Assembly: GCF_900473965.1 (NCBI RefSeq)
Contig: NZ_UCNJ01000012.1
Coordinates: 62,001 to 126,000 of the forward strand
DNA: 64,000 nucleotides
Source of the DNA: Synechococcus sp. UW179A
Lineage (GTDB): Bacteria; Cyanobacteriota; Cyanobacteriia; PCC-6307; Cyanobiaceae
Direction: 5' to 3'
A program made the position numbers and the translations under genes. Shown here in pieces: positions 30,658-35,628 of this stretch; the stretch's first letter is position 1, and each line of letters starts with the position of its first letter. The notes beneath the pieces were generated by a model. It saw nothing but the letters and a program-made list of their open reading frames with translations. It had not been told where the DNA came from and ran no database searches.

Positions 30658-30819
30658 AAGTTTGTGGTTTCTAGTCGTTCGTTCATGGTTGATTGATAAT
30701 CGTGCTTTGATCGTGGGCAACACTTCCCACTTGCAATTTTCTGCGTGTTCTATTGGGGGTCGAGTAATGAGCTGTTAGCTAACTTCTCTGCACGCAACTT
30801 TTGATCGTTGGAGGGCTTT

Positions 30820-31242
30820 TTGGATCAGAGCATGGACGATTTGAAGCCTTCTTTGGCTGTGTTGATTTGTTCGGCGGCGGATGTTTGCCGAAAGCCGCTG
30901 ATTCATGCGCTTGTTCTAGTCGATCAGCAGTTTTCCGCTGATCAAGCGCCAATGTTGAGTACCGACTCTTTGCAGGCGATGATTGATTTGAGAGCTCGTC
31001 TTGAATGTCGAGACCCAGATGGCAGCCGCTGTAGTGAACAGGATCTCGAATTAGAGATTTATCAGAGTGGTGATGATTTGAATTTAATGCTGAGTTGGTG
31101 GAATCAGACAGACAGACCACTTCTATGGCACGGTCAGCACCCGGTTTGGATGGATGGTGACACTGGCAAGCGCTGTTCGGCTCCCAACGACGGGGCACCG
31201 TTGGAAGCCCTGGCTCGACGCCTCAGGGTCCTGCTGGTCTGA
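30820..31242 (+). CDS. Conserved hypothetical protein
   Basis: The protein has about 140 residues and is acidic and soluble, with SLAVLICSAADVCRKPLIHA, then LQAMIDLRARLECRDPDGSR and LMLSWWNQTDRPLLWHGQHP. I do not recognise a domain. The TTG at 30820 has GGAGGG four bases upstream, the best ribosome-binding site in the area; TTG 30808 and ATG 30832 are alternatives. It ends exactly next to the convergent ilvD stop, with no intergenic bases. Confidence 0.65.
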   Translation: MDQSMDDLKPSLAVLICSAADVCRKPLIHALVLVDQQFSADQAPMLSTDSLQAMIDLRARLECRDPDGSRCSEQDLELEIYQSGDDLNLMLSWWNQTDRPLLWHGQHPVWMDGDTGKRCSAPNDGAPLEALARRLRVLLV

Positions 31243-32913
31243 TTAGGGCTGATCGGTGACTGCTCCCCTGCTGCTGGAACTGACGAGACGAGCGTATTTG
31301 CCGAGGATGCCGGTCCGATAGCGGGGAGTTGGACTGCTCCAATCAGCTCGTCTGCGAGCTAGTTCTTCTTCATCCACGTTGAGTTGAAGCAAGAGTTGAT
31401 TGGCGTCAACGGTGATGCTGTCTCCTTCTTGAACCAGTCCGATGGTGCCGCCGACTGCGGCTTCAGGAGCAACATGCCCTACTACTAGTCCGTAGGAGCC
31501 ACCACTGAAGCGCCCGTCAGTGATCAGGGCCACTTTTTCGCCTAGTCCCTGACCGACGATGGCTGCAGTGGGTGAGAGCATCTCGCGCATACCCGGGCCG
31601 CCCACTGGACCCTCATAGCGGACCACCACCACATCTCCAGCCTTGATTTTGCGATCAAGAATGGCTTCGAGGCAGGTCTCTTCACTTTCAAAAACCCTTG
31701 CTGGGCCTGTCAGCACAGGAGATTTGACTCCGCTGATCTTGGCGACGCTTCCCTCCAGTGCAAGGTTGCCCTTGAGAATGGCCAGGTGTCCTTTCTGATA
31801 AATGGGTTTGCTGATCGGACGGATCACATCCTGATCAGCAGGAGGTTCTGAAGGAACATGTTCGAGTAACTGCTTCAGCGTCTTGCCTTCAATCGTTTGG
31901 CAATCGCCATGCAGGAGGCCTGCATTCAGTAGCAGTTTCATCACTTGGGGGATACCGCCGGCTCTATGAAGATCAACGGTGACGTAACGACCGCTGGGCT
32001 TCAGGTCGCAGAAGACCGGAACCCGCTGGCGGATTTGTTCAAAGTCATCGATGTTCAGGTCGACTCCTGCTGTTCTTGCAATGGCGAGCAGGTGCAGAAC
32101 CGAGTTGGTTGAGCCGCCAACTGCCATGATCACGCTGATGGCGTTTTCAAAGGCCTCCCTCGTCAGCAGATCCAGCGGTCTGATGTTCGCTTTCACCGCT
32201 GCAACAAGGACTTCGGCCGACCGGGCTGCGCTATCGGCTTTCTCGGCATCCTCCGCCGCCATCGTGGAACTACACGGGAGACTCAATCCCATTGTTTCGA
32301 TGGCGGCGCTCATCGTGTTGGCAGTAAACATGCCGCCACAGCTTCCAGCTCCAGGACAGGCGTTCTTCTCGACGGCGATGAGCTGATCCATATCGATCTT
32401 GCCGTTCGTGATCTGTCCAACGGCTTCGAATGCACTCACCACGGTGAGATCGCAACCACCGAGTTTTCCTGGCTTAATCGTGCCGCCGTAGACAAAGATC
32501 GCTGGGATGTTCATCCGTGCCATGGCCAGCATGGCGCCGGGCATGTTCTTGTCGCATCCACCCACGGCGAGAACGCCATCCATGCTCTGACCGTTGCAGG
32601 CTGTCTCAATCGCATCGGCAATCACTTCACGGCTTACCAGGGAGTACTTCATCCCCTCCGTGCCCATGGAGATCCCATCGCTGACGGTGATCGTTCCGAA
32701 CATTTGCGGCATGCCTCCCGCCTGACGTGCTGCAGCTTCCGCACGTTTCGACAAATCGTTCAGGCCCACGTTGCAAGGCGTGATTGTGCTGTAGCCGTTA
32801 GCAATGCCAATGATCGGTTTGCCGAAATCCTGGTCTCCGAAGCCCACGGCTCTCAACATCGCCCTGTTAGGGGAACGCTGGATCCCCTTGGTGACGGCAT
32901 CGGAGCGGAGCAT
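31243..32913 (-). CDS. ilvD: Dihydroxy-acid dehydratase
   Basis: IlvD converts 2,3-dihydroxy-3-methylvalerate and its valine-pathway analogue to the 2-keto acids, the third step of branched-chain amino acid synthesis, with an iron-sulfur cluster. The 556-residue protein (normal length) shows [38 protein letters not shown] and [19 protein letters not shown], which hold the cluster cysteines and the catalytic site. It is the last of three minus-strand genes, after the Upp-like protein and a small membrane protein, and it abuts the convergent gene at 30820. Confidence 0.97.
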
Positions 32914-32965: not shown

Positions 32966-33262
32966 TTACTGCCTGGAGCCGAGATCTTCAAGTTGACGGC
33001 GCACATCTGCAATCGCCGAATTCAGCTGCTCGACACGCGCTTCAAGGTGGCTATCGGAATCAGGCTCAGGTCGATCTCCGGCACTGAATGCTTCACTCCC
33101 GTCTTGCATGCGCGGTGCGTAAAGCATCGAGCGCTGGTTGCGAAGGCGACGACGGCGATCAGCTTCTGAGAGCAGCCACCAACCGAATCCAGCCGCTCCC
33201 AGAACGGCACCACTGACCAGTGTGGCCAGTGTTCCTGATGCAGAGTCCTGCTGCCGCGCCAT
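32966..33262 (-). CDS. Small membrane-anchored coiled-coil protein
   Basis: This 98-residue protein has one membrane segment near the N-terminus (LVSGAVLGAAGFGWWLLS), a basic patch (DRRRRLRNQRS) and a C-terminal helix with a heptad-like pattern (LEARVEQLNSAIADVRRQLE). It is predicted to be a single-pass membrane protein with a cytosolic coiled coil that could mediate dimerisation. I recognise no family. It lies between the Upp-like gene (24 bases upstream) and ilvD (53 bases downstream) on the same strand. Confidence 0.7.
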   Translation of the reverse strand: MARQQDSASGTLATLVSGAVLGAAGFGWWLLSEADRRRRLRNQRSMLYAPRMQDGSEAFSAGDRPEPDSDSHLEARVEQLNSAIADVRRQLEDLGSRQ

Positions 33263-33286: not shown

Positions 33287-33904
33287 CTAGTTCGGCTGAG
33301 CTGTTCTGATTCCCAGTCTTTGCAGGGGATCACCGATACCTGGAAGGATGCGTTCTTGCTCATCGAGGTCGGCATCGATGCAGGCTGTGTGGATTGTGAT
33401 CTCCGGGTACGACTCACCGATTCGTTTCAGACCAGGGCTGGCGGAGAGTGCTGTTATCACACGCAGCCGCGGCGCTTCTACGCCCAGCTGGTCGAGACGC
33501 TGAAGCAGGTCGATTAGTTCATCACCATGACGGATCTGATCCAGAAACATCACCACGCCGGCCTGAGCCTCAATGGTTCCAGGTAGTCCTCCCAGGCAGA
33601 GTTCGGCGCTGGGCAGCACCTGGCGGGCACCTTCCCAGAGGTGGAGCCCACCTGGGACCATCGGAACCGCCAGTAATGGAACCGCTGTTTCAACCACGGT
33701 TCCTTCCGTGCTGCTAAGTGGAGTTTTCACCAGATCCTTGCGATGTGGCAGCCAGTCACGCATTGCTTCGTAGCTGAGCCAGCGTCCGAGCTCCTCCATG
33801 GCGGTCCGGAACAAAGCCGGTGGAGTTCCCTCATGCCTGAGCATGGTCAGCCAGTGGGCGATCAGGGGATGGGGCGGTACCACCACCCGGAGAGTCTTGG
33901 CCAT
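33287..33904 (-). CDS. Uracil phosphoribosyltransferase-like protein lacking the PRPP loop
   Basis: The 205-residue protein follows the Upp fold over most of its length: VVVPPHPLIAHWLTMLRHEG, LGRWLSYEAMRDWLP, then ITIHTACIDADLDEQERILP and GIGDPLQRLG, close to the end of true uracil phosphoribosyltransferases. However, where Upp has the PRPP-binding loop VDPMLATGGS, this protein reads MFLDQIRHGDEL, and the ILRAGLGM block is replaced by MVPGGLHLW. It is therefore unlikely to make UMP from uracil and PRPP. It may be a regulatory or repurposed member of the family; the role is unknown. It heads a minus-strand cluster with ilvD. Confidence 0.8.
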   Translation of the reverse strand: MAKTLRVVVPPHPLIAHWLTMLRHEGTPPALFRTAMEELGRWLSYEAMRDWLPHRKDLVKTPLSSTEGTVVETAVPLLAVPMVPGGLHLWEGARQVLPSAELCLGGLPGTIEAQAGVVMFLDQIRHGDELIDLLQRLDQLGVEAPRLRVITALSASPGLKRIGESYPEITIHTACIDADLDEQERILPGIGDPLQRLGIRTAQPN

Positions 33905-33991
33905 GACGCGTGGCTGGGCAGTCGTCTGCCATATCGTGACCGCTCAAGTTACGGCAGCTGTTCCCAGGCACCTGTCGAGCGTTCACTCACC

Positions 33992-34522
33992 ATGGTCTTG
34001 TCTGCTTTTCTCCGATCTGTCTCCCGCCGCTTGATCGCTTCGTTTGTCTGTGGCCTGCTTGTCGTCACTGCACTTGTGTTCGCTGGAGATGCTGCTGAAG
34101 CGATTACGGCTCCAGAGTTGCGGGGGCAACGGGCTGTTCAGGACATCACAGCCGACATGCATGGACGCGATCTCAAAGAGAAGGAATTCCTCAAAGCCGA
34201 CTTACGTGAGGTGAATCTCAGCGAGACCGACTTGCGTGGTGCTGTGATCAATACCTCTCAGCTGCAGGGTGCTGATCTGCGGGGAGCTGATCTTGAGGAT
34301 GTTGTGGCCTTCTCAAGCCGCTTTGACGGAGCTGACCTGCGCGATGCCAACTTCACCAACGCGATGCTGATGCAGAGTCGTTTCAACGATGCTGAAATCG
34401 AAGGAACGGATTTCACCAATGCTGTGATCGACCTTCCTCAGCTGAAAGCGTTGTGCGGCAGAGCCACGGGTGTTAACAGCCGCAGTGGTCTCAGTACTCG
34501 TGAATCGCTTGGATGTCGCTGA
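33992..34522 (+). CDS. Exported pentapeptide-repeat protein (thylakoid-lumen type)
   Basis: From ATG 33992 the 176-residue protein has a signal peptide (FVCGLLVVTALVFAGDAAEA), then about 90 residues of pentapeptide repeats with the A(D/N)LXX rhythm: LREVNLSETDLRGAVI, LQGADLRGADLEDV and FDGADLRDANFTNAML. These should form a right-handed quadrilateral beta-helix, and the C-terminus keeps two Cys. It resembles lumenal pentapeptide proteins of cyanobacteria and chloroplasts, so I infer the thylakoid lumen. Its TGA overlaps the start region of the cobW-like gene (TGATG), so the two are coupled. The open frame upstream to 33743 is antisense to the Upp-like gene and rejected. Confidence 0.85.
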   Translation: MVLSAFLRSVSRRLIASFVCGLLVVTALVFAGDAAEAITAPELRGQRAVQDITADMHGRDLKEKEFLKADLREVNLSETDLRGAVINTSQLQGADLRGADLEDVVAFSSRFDGADLRDANFTNAMLMQSRFNDAEIEGTDFTNAVIDLPQLKALCGRATGVNSRSGLSTRESLGCR

Positions 34523-35628
34523 TGTCTCTACGACTTCCTGTCACGGTTATCACCGGTTTCCTTGGTGCCGGCAAGACAACTCTTCTCCGTCATCTTCTGA
34601 TTAACAGTGGTCAACGTTTGGCCGTGATGGTCAATGAATTTGGCACGGTCGGTCTCGATGGAGATCTGATTCGCAGCTGTGGTTTTTGCCCTGAAGAAGA
34701 GGTCAGCGGTCGGCTAGTAGAGCTCAACAACGGCTGCTTGTGCTGCACTGTTCAGGACGATTTCCTTCCCACAATGGAGAAATTGCTCCAGCGCTCTGAT
34801 CAGCTTGATGGAATCGTCGTAGAGACAAGTGGTCTCGCTTTGCCCAGGCCTCTGTTACAAGCACTTCAGTGGCCTTCCATCCGTAAACGTGTGCATGTGA
34901 ACGGTGTAGTCACTGTTGTGGATGGTCAAGCTCTCAGTGGTGGAAGCCCTGTTGGAAATCCCGAGGCTCTTGAGCGTCAGCGACAAGAAGATCCAAACCT
35001 TGATCACCTGACCGCCATCGATGACTTGTTCAAGGATCAGCTTGAGGCTGCTGACCTTGTGTTGATCACACGATCGGATCGGCTTGATTCATCCGAATTG
35101 GAGTTGGTGCAGCATCAAATTGCTTCAAAAGTGAGACCTGGAGCCGGTACTTTCGCTATCAGCCGCGGCGTTGTTGATCCAGCTTTGGTGCTTGGAATCG
35201 ACTCGCACCAATGCTCATCTGTTGAAGTGTCTGATCAAACTGGCCATGAGCACCATGAGCACCATGAGCACCATGAGCACCATGAGCACCATGAGCACAC
35301 CCATGTTGAAGCCATCAGTGGCCAGGTTCGATGCGAAGGCTCATTTTCCCGCGAAGAGCTTGAGCAGCTGCTACCTGAATTCGTACTGAACCATGGTGTG
35401 ATCCGTCTTAAAGGTCGTGTTTGGCTGGTGGGCAAATCATTGCCATTGCAAATTCAGATGGTGGGACCTCGTTTAGACAGTTGGTTTGAAGTCGCACCTG
35501 ATCACGCCTGGAAGCCCTCTGGTGGTACAGGAATTGAACTGGTTGTCATCGGCTTTAAAGCTGATGCTTCGCAGCGCTTGAAGGGAATGCTCCTATCAAT
35601 GATTTCATGCGTTCCACAGTCACTCTGA
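34513..35628 (+). CDS. CobW/COG0523 GTPase with histidine-rich repeat
   Basis: This is a 371-residue G3E GTPase of the CobW/P47K group, metallochaperones that deliver Zn, Co or other metals. The P-loop GFLGAGKTT is at residues 15-23, the metal motif GCLCC at about 74-78, and VVETSGLALPRPLLQAL and LVLITRSDRLD are the switch and base-binding segments. Residues about 245-262 are six HEH units, a likely metal sink, followed by the CobW C-terminal domain (LLPEFVLNHGVIRLKG). The ATG at 34513 or 34522 overlaps the upstream gene's stop. The metal is not shown; Zn homeostasis is one known role of such His-rich members. Confidence 0.9.
   Translation: MSLMSLRLPVTVITGFLGAGKTTLLRHLLINSGQRLAVMVNEFGTVGLDGDLIRSCGFCPEEEVSGRLVELNNGCLCCTVQDDFLPTMEKLLQRSDQLDGIVVETSGLALPRPLLQALQWPSIRKRVHVNGVVTVVDGQALSGGSPVGNPEALERQRQEDPNLDHLTAIDDLFKDQLEAADLVLITRSDRLDSSELELVQHQIASKVRPGAGTFAISRGVVDPALVLGIDSHQCSSVEVSDQTGHEHHEHHEHHEHHEHHEHTHVEAISGQVRCEGSFSREELEQLLPEFVLNHGVIRLKGRVWLVGKSLPLQIQMVGPRLDSWFEVAPDHAWKPSGGTGIELVVIGFKADASQRLKGMLLSMISCVPQSL
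35245..35298 (+). repeat. Six tandem copies of a 9-bp repeat inside the CobW-like gene
   Basis: The unit CATGAGCAC occurs six times without change at 35245-35298 and encodes (His-Glu-His)x6. Perfect nucleotide identity between copies, including synonymous positions, points to recent slippage, so the copy number is likely to vary between strains. Confidence 0.95.

Follow-up and report, generated by a model that had tools for sequence, protein, structure and literature searches.

Why should a picocyanobacterium keep a gene for a uracil phosphoribosyltransferase (UPRTase) from which the catalytic loops are absent? The question is raised by the upp-like gene at 33287..33904 (minus strand) of a 64,000 nucleotide stretch of the genome of Synechococcus sp. 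UW179A (contig NZ_UCNJ01000012.1, positions 62,001 to 126,000), which we call the window. An initial annotation, made from the letters of the DNA, had described its product as an Upp-like protein lacking the loop that binds phosphoribosyl pyrophosphate (PRPP). We think it probable that the gene is a vertically inherited orthologue of the cyanobacterial-type UPRTase that no longer catalyses, and that it is kept for a second, probably ancestral role exerted through its N-terminal face.

The open reading frame (ORF) begins with an ATG and runs uninterrupted for 205 residues, and its codon use resembles that of its neighbours (relative codon score 0.100, compared to 0.054–0.158 in the six genes forming the reference and −0.099 in an antisense frame), both as first annotated. 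A Pfam profile search matches the UPRTase family (PF14681) over residues 9–192 (E = 1.3e-32, 113.4 bits compared to a cut-off of 27), and this significant full-length match, together with a predicted UPRTase fold, places the protein within the family. Two NCBIfam upp models are matched as well (E = 7.3e-31 and 2.4e-29), though with scores under their curated cut-offs (107.5 compared to 114 bits, and 102.5 compared to 208 bits). Given the Pfam and NCBIfam matches, the resemblance to Upp is not due to chance. Solved UPRTases are also matched, the best PDB entry by sequence being 1o5o (E = 3.7e-17), and no PyrR model is among the NCBIfam matches up to an E of 1.

We aligned the protein with 22 Upp proteins from other cyanobacterial families (21 whole and one frameshifted) and seven canonical copies. 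The N-terminal block is nearly unchanged, in agreement with the initial annotation, and the two catalytic elements that it had reported missing are indeed gone: the PRPP loop reads LDQIRHGDE instead of DPMLATGGS (residues 121–129, 33518..33544, minus strand, as for the sites that follow), and the RAG loop, which the annotation had called the ILRAGLGM block, reads PMVPGGLHL instead of PILRAGLGL (residues 81–89, 33638..33664), with RAG replaced by PGG. The alignment adds two further losses. Sixteen columns are removed from the flexible loop, with the gap after C103 (around residues 103–112, 33569..33598), and the C-terminal tail reads PGIGDPLQR instead of PGLGDAGDR (residues 188–196, 33317..33343), so that GLGDAGDR has become GIGDPLQR. 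Among the 87 loop-less proteins described below, the flexible-loop residues R109 and Y119 are kept in 3% and 11%, respectively. A PRPP loop conserved in another segment of the protein would have changed this picture, but no second copy was seen in the alignment. The features expected of a functional UPRTase (EC 2.4.2.9), namely a PRPP loop of the DPMxATGGS type, the RAG loop, the flexible-loop Arg and Tyr and the GLGDAGDR tail, are thus all absent and, with the PRPP-binding elements lost, UPRTase catalysis has most likely been lost too, to judge from the sequence.

What remains is predicted to fold. An AlphaFold2 model, computed from a 65-sequence alignment (the window protein and 64 of 79 usable distinct proteins), has a pLDDT of 93.7 and a pTM of 0.89, with N-terminal helices predicted at residues 13–23 and 29–51. 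The best fold matches of the model are UPRTases, with a Foldseek TM of about 0.8 and, in VIA, a match to 1o5o with a Z of 25.5 over 193 residues at an rmsd of 2.5; other phosphoribosyltransferases (PRTases) score far lower in VIA, with a Z of 11.7 or less. Since it is UPRTases that the fold matches best, the window protein is predicted to be a folded UPRTase-like protein without the catalytic loops.

Could another protein supply the activity? The host genome (3.06 Mb in 35 contigs, 99.97% complete) was searched as a whole for a second, canonical upp, and no other protein scores over the UPRTase cut-off. The PRTase-family genes identified there are prs, apt, purF, pyrE, a comF-like gene, a fragment resembling orotate phosphoribosyltransferase (OPRT) and PyrR (L171; NF003549, 250.9 bits compared to a cut-off of 138). 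PyrR is a bifunctional regulator of pyr genes and UPRTase, and could supply UPRTase activity. It is present in 231 of 251 Cyanobiaceae genomes, including 164 of the 168 good ones (at least 90% complete), alongside intact and loop-less Upp alike. Uracil salvage, if needed, could therefore fall to PyrR, which the genome has kept. The OPRT-like fragment (L174, C32:178775-179104) is a short ORF with a weak match to the pyrE_Therm model and a stop inside the match, and apparently represents a broken or divergent OPRT-like gene besides the pyrE of L004.

The broken proteins are the same gene as the intact ones, and not a paralogue, because both share a divergent pentapeptide-repeat neighbour in all 134 Cyanobiaceae loci compared (L005–L038 and L070–L169; some are one genome in two collections, e.g. 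L035/L111, some are short, and named contigs were assigned to the family by similarity and gene order). The window protein also groups with intact Cyanobiaceae copies on the gene tree and shares their gene position, and so belongs to the same orthologous group. In other cyanobacterial families, orthologous Upp is found in 22 of 23 genomes, each from a different family; the remaining genome (G044) gave no match, also with a Prochlorococcus-weighted query. The catalytic motifs are intact in all 22 orthologues, though in L059 only as far as its frameshift, and seven of the 23 genomes carry a second, canonical Upp too, 31–34% identical to the query. The frameshift of L059 (G042:C18) lies near the C-terminus and may be an assembly error or real. 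In a wider sample of 194 genomes from the phylum, all 79 genomes of the same class outside the family score at least 355 bits with the cyanobacterial-type profile; outside the class, as counted from the listing, 101 of 102 genomes match it at 218 bits or less and one gives no match. From taxonomy, the class would correspond to the photosynthetic Cyanobacteriia and the others to non-photosynthetic relatives.

Both states of the loop occur within Cyanobiaceae. An intact PRPP loop is found, for instance, in Synechococcus WH 5701 (L168). The broken loop is mostly of the form xDQI in Prochlorococcus and in the genus of the window, where all 29 sequences have lost the loop and carry the deletion. 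Elsewhere it reads APQVARGDS (some Vulcanococcus metagenome-assembled genomes), EPLVGAATN (Baikal-G1 and relatives), AAEIATGQG (L157 and relatives) or LPVLARGAT (L162, L164 and L166). A further variant, ATAGS or ATAGT for ATGGS, is seen in several genomes of Cyanobium and Synechococcus (L072, L074, L084, L085, L088, L134, L159 and others) and possibly represents an intermediate or an altered enzyme. With states called by regular expression and identical proteins counted once, 141 distinct proteins comprise 87 lost, 42 intact and 12 ATAG loops; in Cyanobiaceae alone there are 87, 14 and 12, the other 28 intact ones being the outgroup, and these counts are not frequencies, as the sampling scan favoured loop-less forms and kept 80 of 170 matches. 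Trees were built without the motif columns and without L059 (L001, L068 and L069 duplicate other loci). The lost state requires six changes on a quick tree of all 141 rows, two of them forced by strong branches, and six on a careful tree of 70 rows hand-picked from these, three of them forced and with a bootstrap range of 4–7, where the changes may include gains besides losses and where probably about one fewer is needed if the borderline L146 (DPMVASAGT), here called lost, is taken as kept. A single origin of the lost loop occurs in none of the 200 bootstrap trees of the 70-row set. On this picture ancestors of the Synechococcus/Prochlorococcus group would have lost the PRPP-binding elements, and most likely UPRTase catalysis with them.

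Is such a gene on its way out? It is matched in 227 of 251 Cyanobiaceae genomes (E of 1e-10 or better) and in 164 of the 168 good ones, and is retained in complete genomes of 1.6–1.7 Mb; a search among relatives found the protein in 56 of 60 genomes, including 48 of 49 good ones. No match was found in 24 of the 251, G261, G265, G273 and G277 among them, and the Prochlorococcus-weighted query found nothing in 23 genomes (the other 20 of the 24, with G002, G003 and G044). Four of the misses are in good genomes and the remainder in less complete ones. In two of the four (G136 and G265) the contig breaks off within ilvD, the neighbour beyond a 98-residue ORF, and in a third (G257) it ends inside that ORF, beside the expected gene; in the fourth (G273) the locus likely falls in an assembly gap, because ilvD is not matched either. 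A control genome (G108) did yield the gene with the same query. The slow decay of a gene whose salvage function had become useless, leaving a remnant without an active site that awaits deletion, would account for the several changes of loop state, the apparent intermediate (ATAGS) and the faster change in the stretch of the former flexible and PRPP loops, all of which have the look of relaxed selection, and PyrR could have made Upp redundant. However, all 29 sequences of the genus have an open frame, which in one case is two residues shorter, the small complete genomes have kept it, no loss is shown in any good genome of the family, and the ratio of non-synonymous to synonymous change (dN/dS) is about 0.13 overall and 0.06 for residues 1–55, as simple pairwise Nei–Gojobori estimates from unsaturated pairs only. 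With selection and retention combined, we judge decay very unlikely, and the initial view of a retained protein rather than a decaying gene is borne out.

Selection acts most strongly on the N-terminal block (residues 1–55, 33740..33904, minus strand), which holds the two helices and a signature of cyanobacterial Upp, VPPHPLIxHWL...TP...ELGRWLxYEAxRxWLP; in the window protein it reads VPPHPLIAHWL...ELGRWLSYEAMRDWLP, nearly unchanged with respect to its Upp relatives. Over these residues mean identity is 0.64 with Upp from other families of cyanobacteria, compared to 0.37 with canonical copies. Within the genus, dN/dS is 0.129 for the whole protein and 0.058 for residues 1–55, followed by 0.205 (56–78), 0.104 (79–100), 0.238 (101–135, the former flexible and PRPP loops and the highest of all stretches), 0.157 (136–175) and 0.219 in the tail (176–198), where identity is 0.64. 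For the 14 intact Cyanobiaceae copies the values are 0.208 for the whole protein, 0.168 for 1–55, 0.261 for 101–135 and 0.137 for the tail, and for 20 Prochlorococcus-like proteins residues 1–55 give 0.092. After loop loss, constraint has thus shifted in relative terms towards the N-terminal block and away from the tail.

Seventeen residues are common to loop-less, intact Cyanobiaceae and other-family proteins while differing from the canonical copies. Ten lie within residues 6–51 (R6, P10, W18, P28, L39, G40, R41, W42, A47 and W51) and the other seven are P76, P81, L87, L89, R148, L159 and I176. The window protein has all ten and so belongs to the cyanobacterial-type Upp group, though such scores are partly by construction, since the alignment behind the signature includes the protein's own group and the residues were selected for their difference from the canonical copies. 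Two proteins of one genus that lay outside the definition (L187 and L188) also have 10 of 10, compared to 2–4 in seven proteins from outside the class and, by construction, none in three canonical copies. In the loop-less proteins a single residue, R94, has become newly fixed (85% or more). Since the most constrained part is common to intact orthologues of other families and no other residue is newly fixed, a second role of old standing is likelier than a new function; of the new or regulatory function first proposed for the protein, the new one is therefore the less supported. The folded UPRTase-like protein would have been kept for a second, non-catalytic role, probably present already in the intact enzyme of other cyanobacteria, and in this role the protein would most likely use its conserved N-terminal face of two helices (around residues 6–53) to bind a partner.

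Several observations weigh against this explanation. Most pairs are near synonymous saturation, so that contrasts in dN/dS weigh more than the values themselves, and one protein of the same genus (L018) stops two residues early. Residues 1–55 are conserved also in loop-keeping Cyanobiaceae (mean identity 0.83), and it may be only folding or dimer contacts that conserve the N-terminal helices. Nor does the former active site drift freely in all its parts: residues 79–100 are still constrained in the genus (dN/dS 0.104) and, in the Prochlorococcus-like proteins (n = 20), the tail at 176–198 ranks second among the stretches in identity (0.70), with a dN/dS of 0.179. Additionally, at least 90% of loop-less proteins keep D177, P188, G189, G191 and R196, and on account of these residues some ligand binding is possible.

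This last point, together with the intact predicted fold and the well conserved Prochlorococcus tail, is what a ligand-sensing regulator would lead one to expect, that is, a protein that no longer binds PRPP but whose remaining tail still holds uracil or some other base or nucleotide, and which signals the state of pyrimidines, for instance through contact with PyrR or an enzyme of biosynthesis. PRT-fold regulators exist (PyrR and PurR), and PyrR is almost always in the same genomes. We nevertheless consider a sensor of this kind unlikely, as conservation of the tail is lower in the genus of the window (0.64 identity, dN/dS 0.219), the PRPP loop and the flexible-loop residues R109 and Y119 are gone, and no pyr gene adjoins the upp-like gene in the window neighbourhood. 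That the protein is still an enzyme, with a different chemistry or substrate, would fit the predicted fold, the selection on the gene and the constraint on residues 79–100 beside the former pocket. However, there is no new conserved polar cluster, R94 alone being newly fixed, and the stretch 101–135 has the highest dN/dS in the genus, which makes an altered enzyme extremely improbable. Partner binding through the N-terminal face of a non-catalytic Upp remains our preferred reading.

The gene is separated by an 87 bp intergenic region between two divergent start codons (33905..33991) from the pentapeptide-repeat gene (33992..34522, plus strand; PF00805, E = 8.3e-26), whose product has a hydrophobic N-terminus, judged by eye to be an export signal. 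This divergent arrangement, the one found in 134 of 134 family loci, persists while other neighbours change, and a functional link to the upp-like gene is possible. Beyond it lies cobW, in 123 of the 134 loci; pentapeptide and cobW genes are divergent neighbours in none of 22 loci from other families. In the window cobW (34513–35628) adjoins the pentapeptide gene, and the two domains of the GTPase that it encodes are separated by a repeat rich in histidine, HEHHEHHEHHEHHEHHEH, possibly a metal-binding stretch. The gene for an MliC-like lysozyme-inhibitor domain protein (PF09864, 35607–35972) overlaps the end of cobW by 22 bases. On the other side, the upp-like gene is collinear with a 98-residue ORF (32966..33262, minus strand) that has one N-terminal hydrophobic stretch and a coiled-coil-like tail (both by eye) and no Pfam match over cut-off, and with ilvD for dihydroxy-acid dehydratase (31243..32913, minus strand; PF00920, E = 3.2e-126), with gaps of 24 and 52 bp. 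The initial annotation had the gene heading a cluster with ilvD and a membrane coiled-coil protein; the order is real but not constant, being found in 111 of 134 loci. We do not regard ilvD as a safe functional clue, as the arrangement is absent from 23 of the 134 family loci (some on short contigs) and present in 1 of 22 from other families. Past ilvD an ORF on the plus strand (30808–31242) is convergent with it, the two stop codons abutting at 31242–31243.

The Synechococcus and Prochlorococcus of the Cyanobiaceae are phototrophs of very high abundance, and the genomes of many are strongly reduced; a protein that persists in them although its enzyme activity has gone offers a promising lead to an important function not yet recognised. 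Naming by homology would call the loop-less protein a uracil phosphoribosyltransferase, so metabolic models in which these cells salvage uracil through Upp may be wrong. In the open-licence literature, by titles and the starts of abstracts and with few subscription journals covered, no report of a catalytically dead Upp in picocyanobacteria is among the matches listed.

How far might the second role extend? Plant plastid UPP, which presumably bears the cyanobacterial signature, keeps its catalytic loops, unlike the window protein, and its role in the chloroplast has been reported as unrelated to nucleotide levels; a naturally loop-less orthologue could separate the two suspected roles of plant UPRT. 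A published table gives the Arabidopsis UPRT knock-out as a light-dependent albino and dwarf (PMC10380321). The chromatophore of Paulinella micropora encodes EC 2.4.2.9 (K00761, APP88061.1, given beside EAQ73733), and the authors of that study express surprise that this step is encoded only in the chromatophore (PMC9450145); APP88061.1 spans 651 nucleotides by its coordinates, and so is not the short 205-residue form. It is tempting, though doubtful, to see in the Upp of oxygenic phototrophs a protein that has had two functions since ancient times, as a salvage enzyme and as a non-enzymatic factor in building or regulating the photosynthetic membrane; picocyanobacteria would repeatedly have shed the enzyme and retained the other function. 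If true, the same second function would explain why plants need UPRT for establishing photosynthesis and why the Paulinella chromatophore still encodes upp.

Among known systems, Upp itself (EC 2.4.2.9; PF14681; TIGR01091) is similar to the window protein over the whole length, in predicted fold (Z of 25.5 to 1o5o) and in the shared residues H12, P13, L14, H17, R23, T27, Y45, E46 and R49 and the PGxG motif, but the window protein lacks its PRPP loop, RAG loop, flexible loop and GDAGDR tail, and stays under the NCBI upp cut-offs. PyrR also belongs to the PRTase family and is a regulatory member of it, but is encoded by a separate gene of the same genome (L171), and the window protein matches no PyrR model. 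Human UPRT, a UPRTase homologue said to be inactive, belongs to a different lineage. The cyanobacterial-type Upp proteins of other families, enzymes to judge by their sequences, share the N-terminal signature and the placement on the gene tree but keep the catalytic motifs in the 22 compared (L059 up to its frameshift). Beside these, the window protein appears as a pseudoenzyme branch of the known UPRTase family, with a second function that is possibly important.
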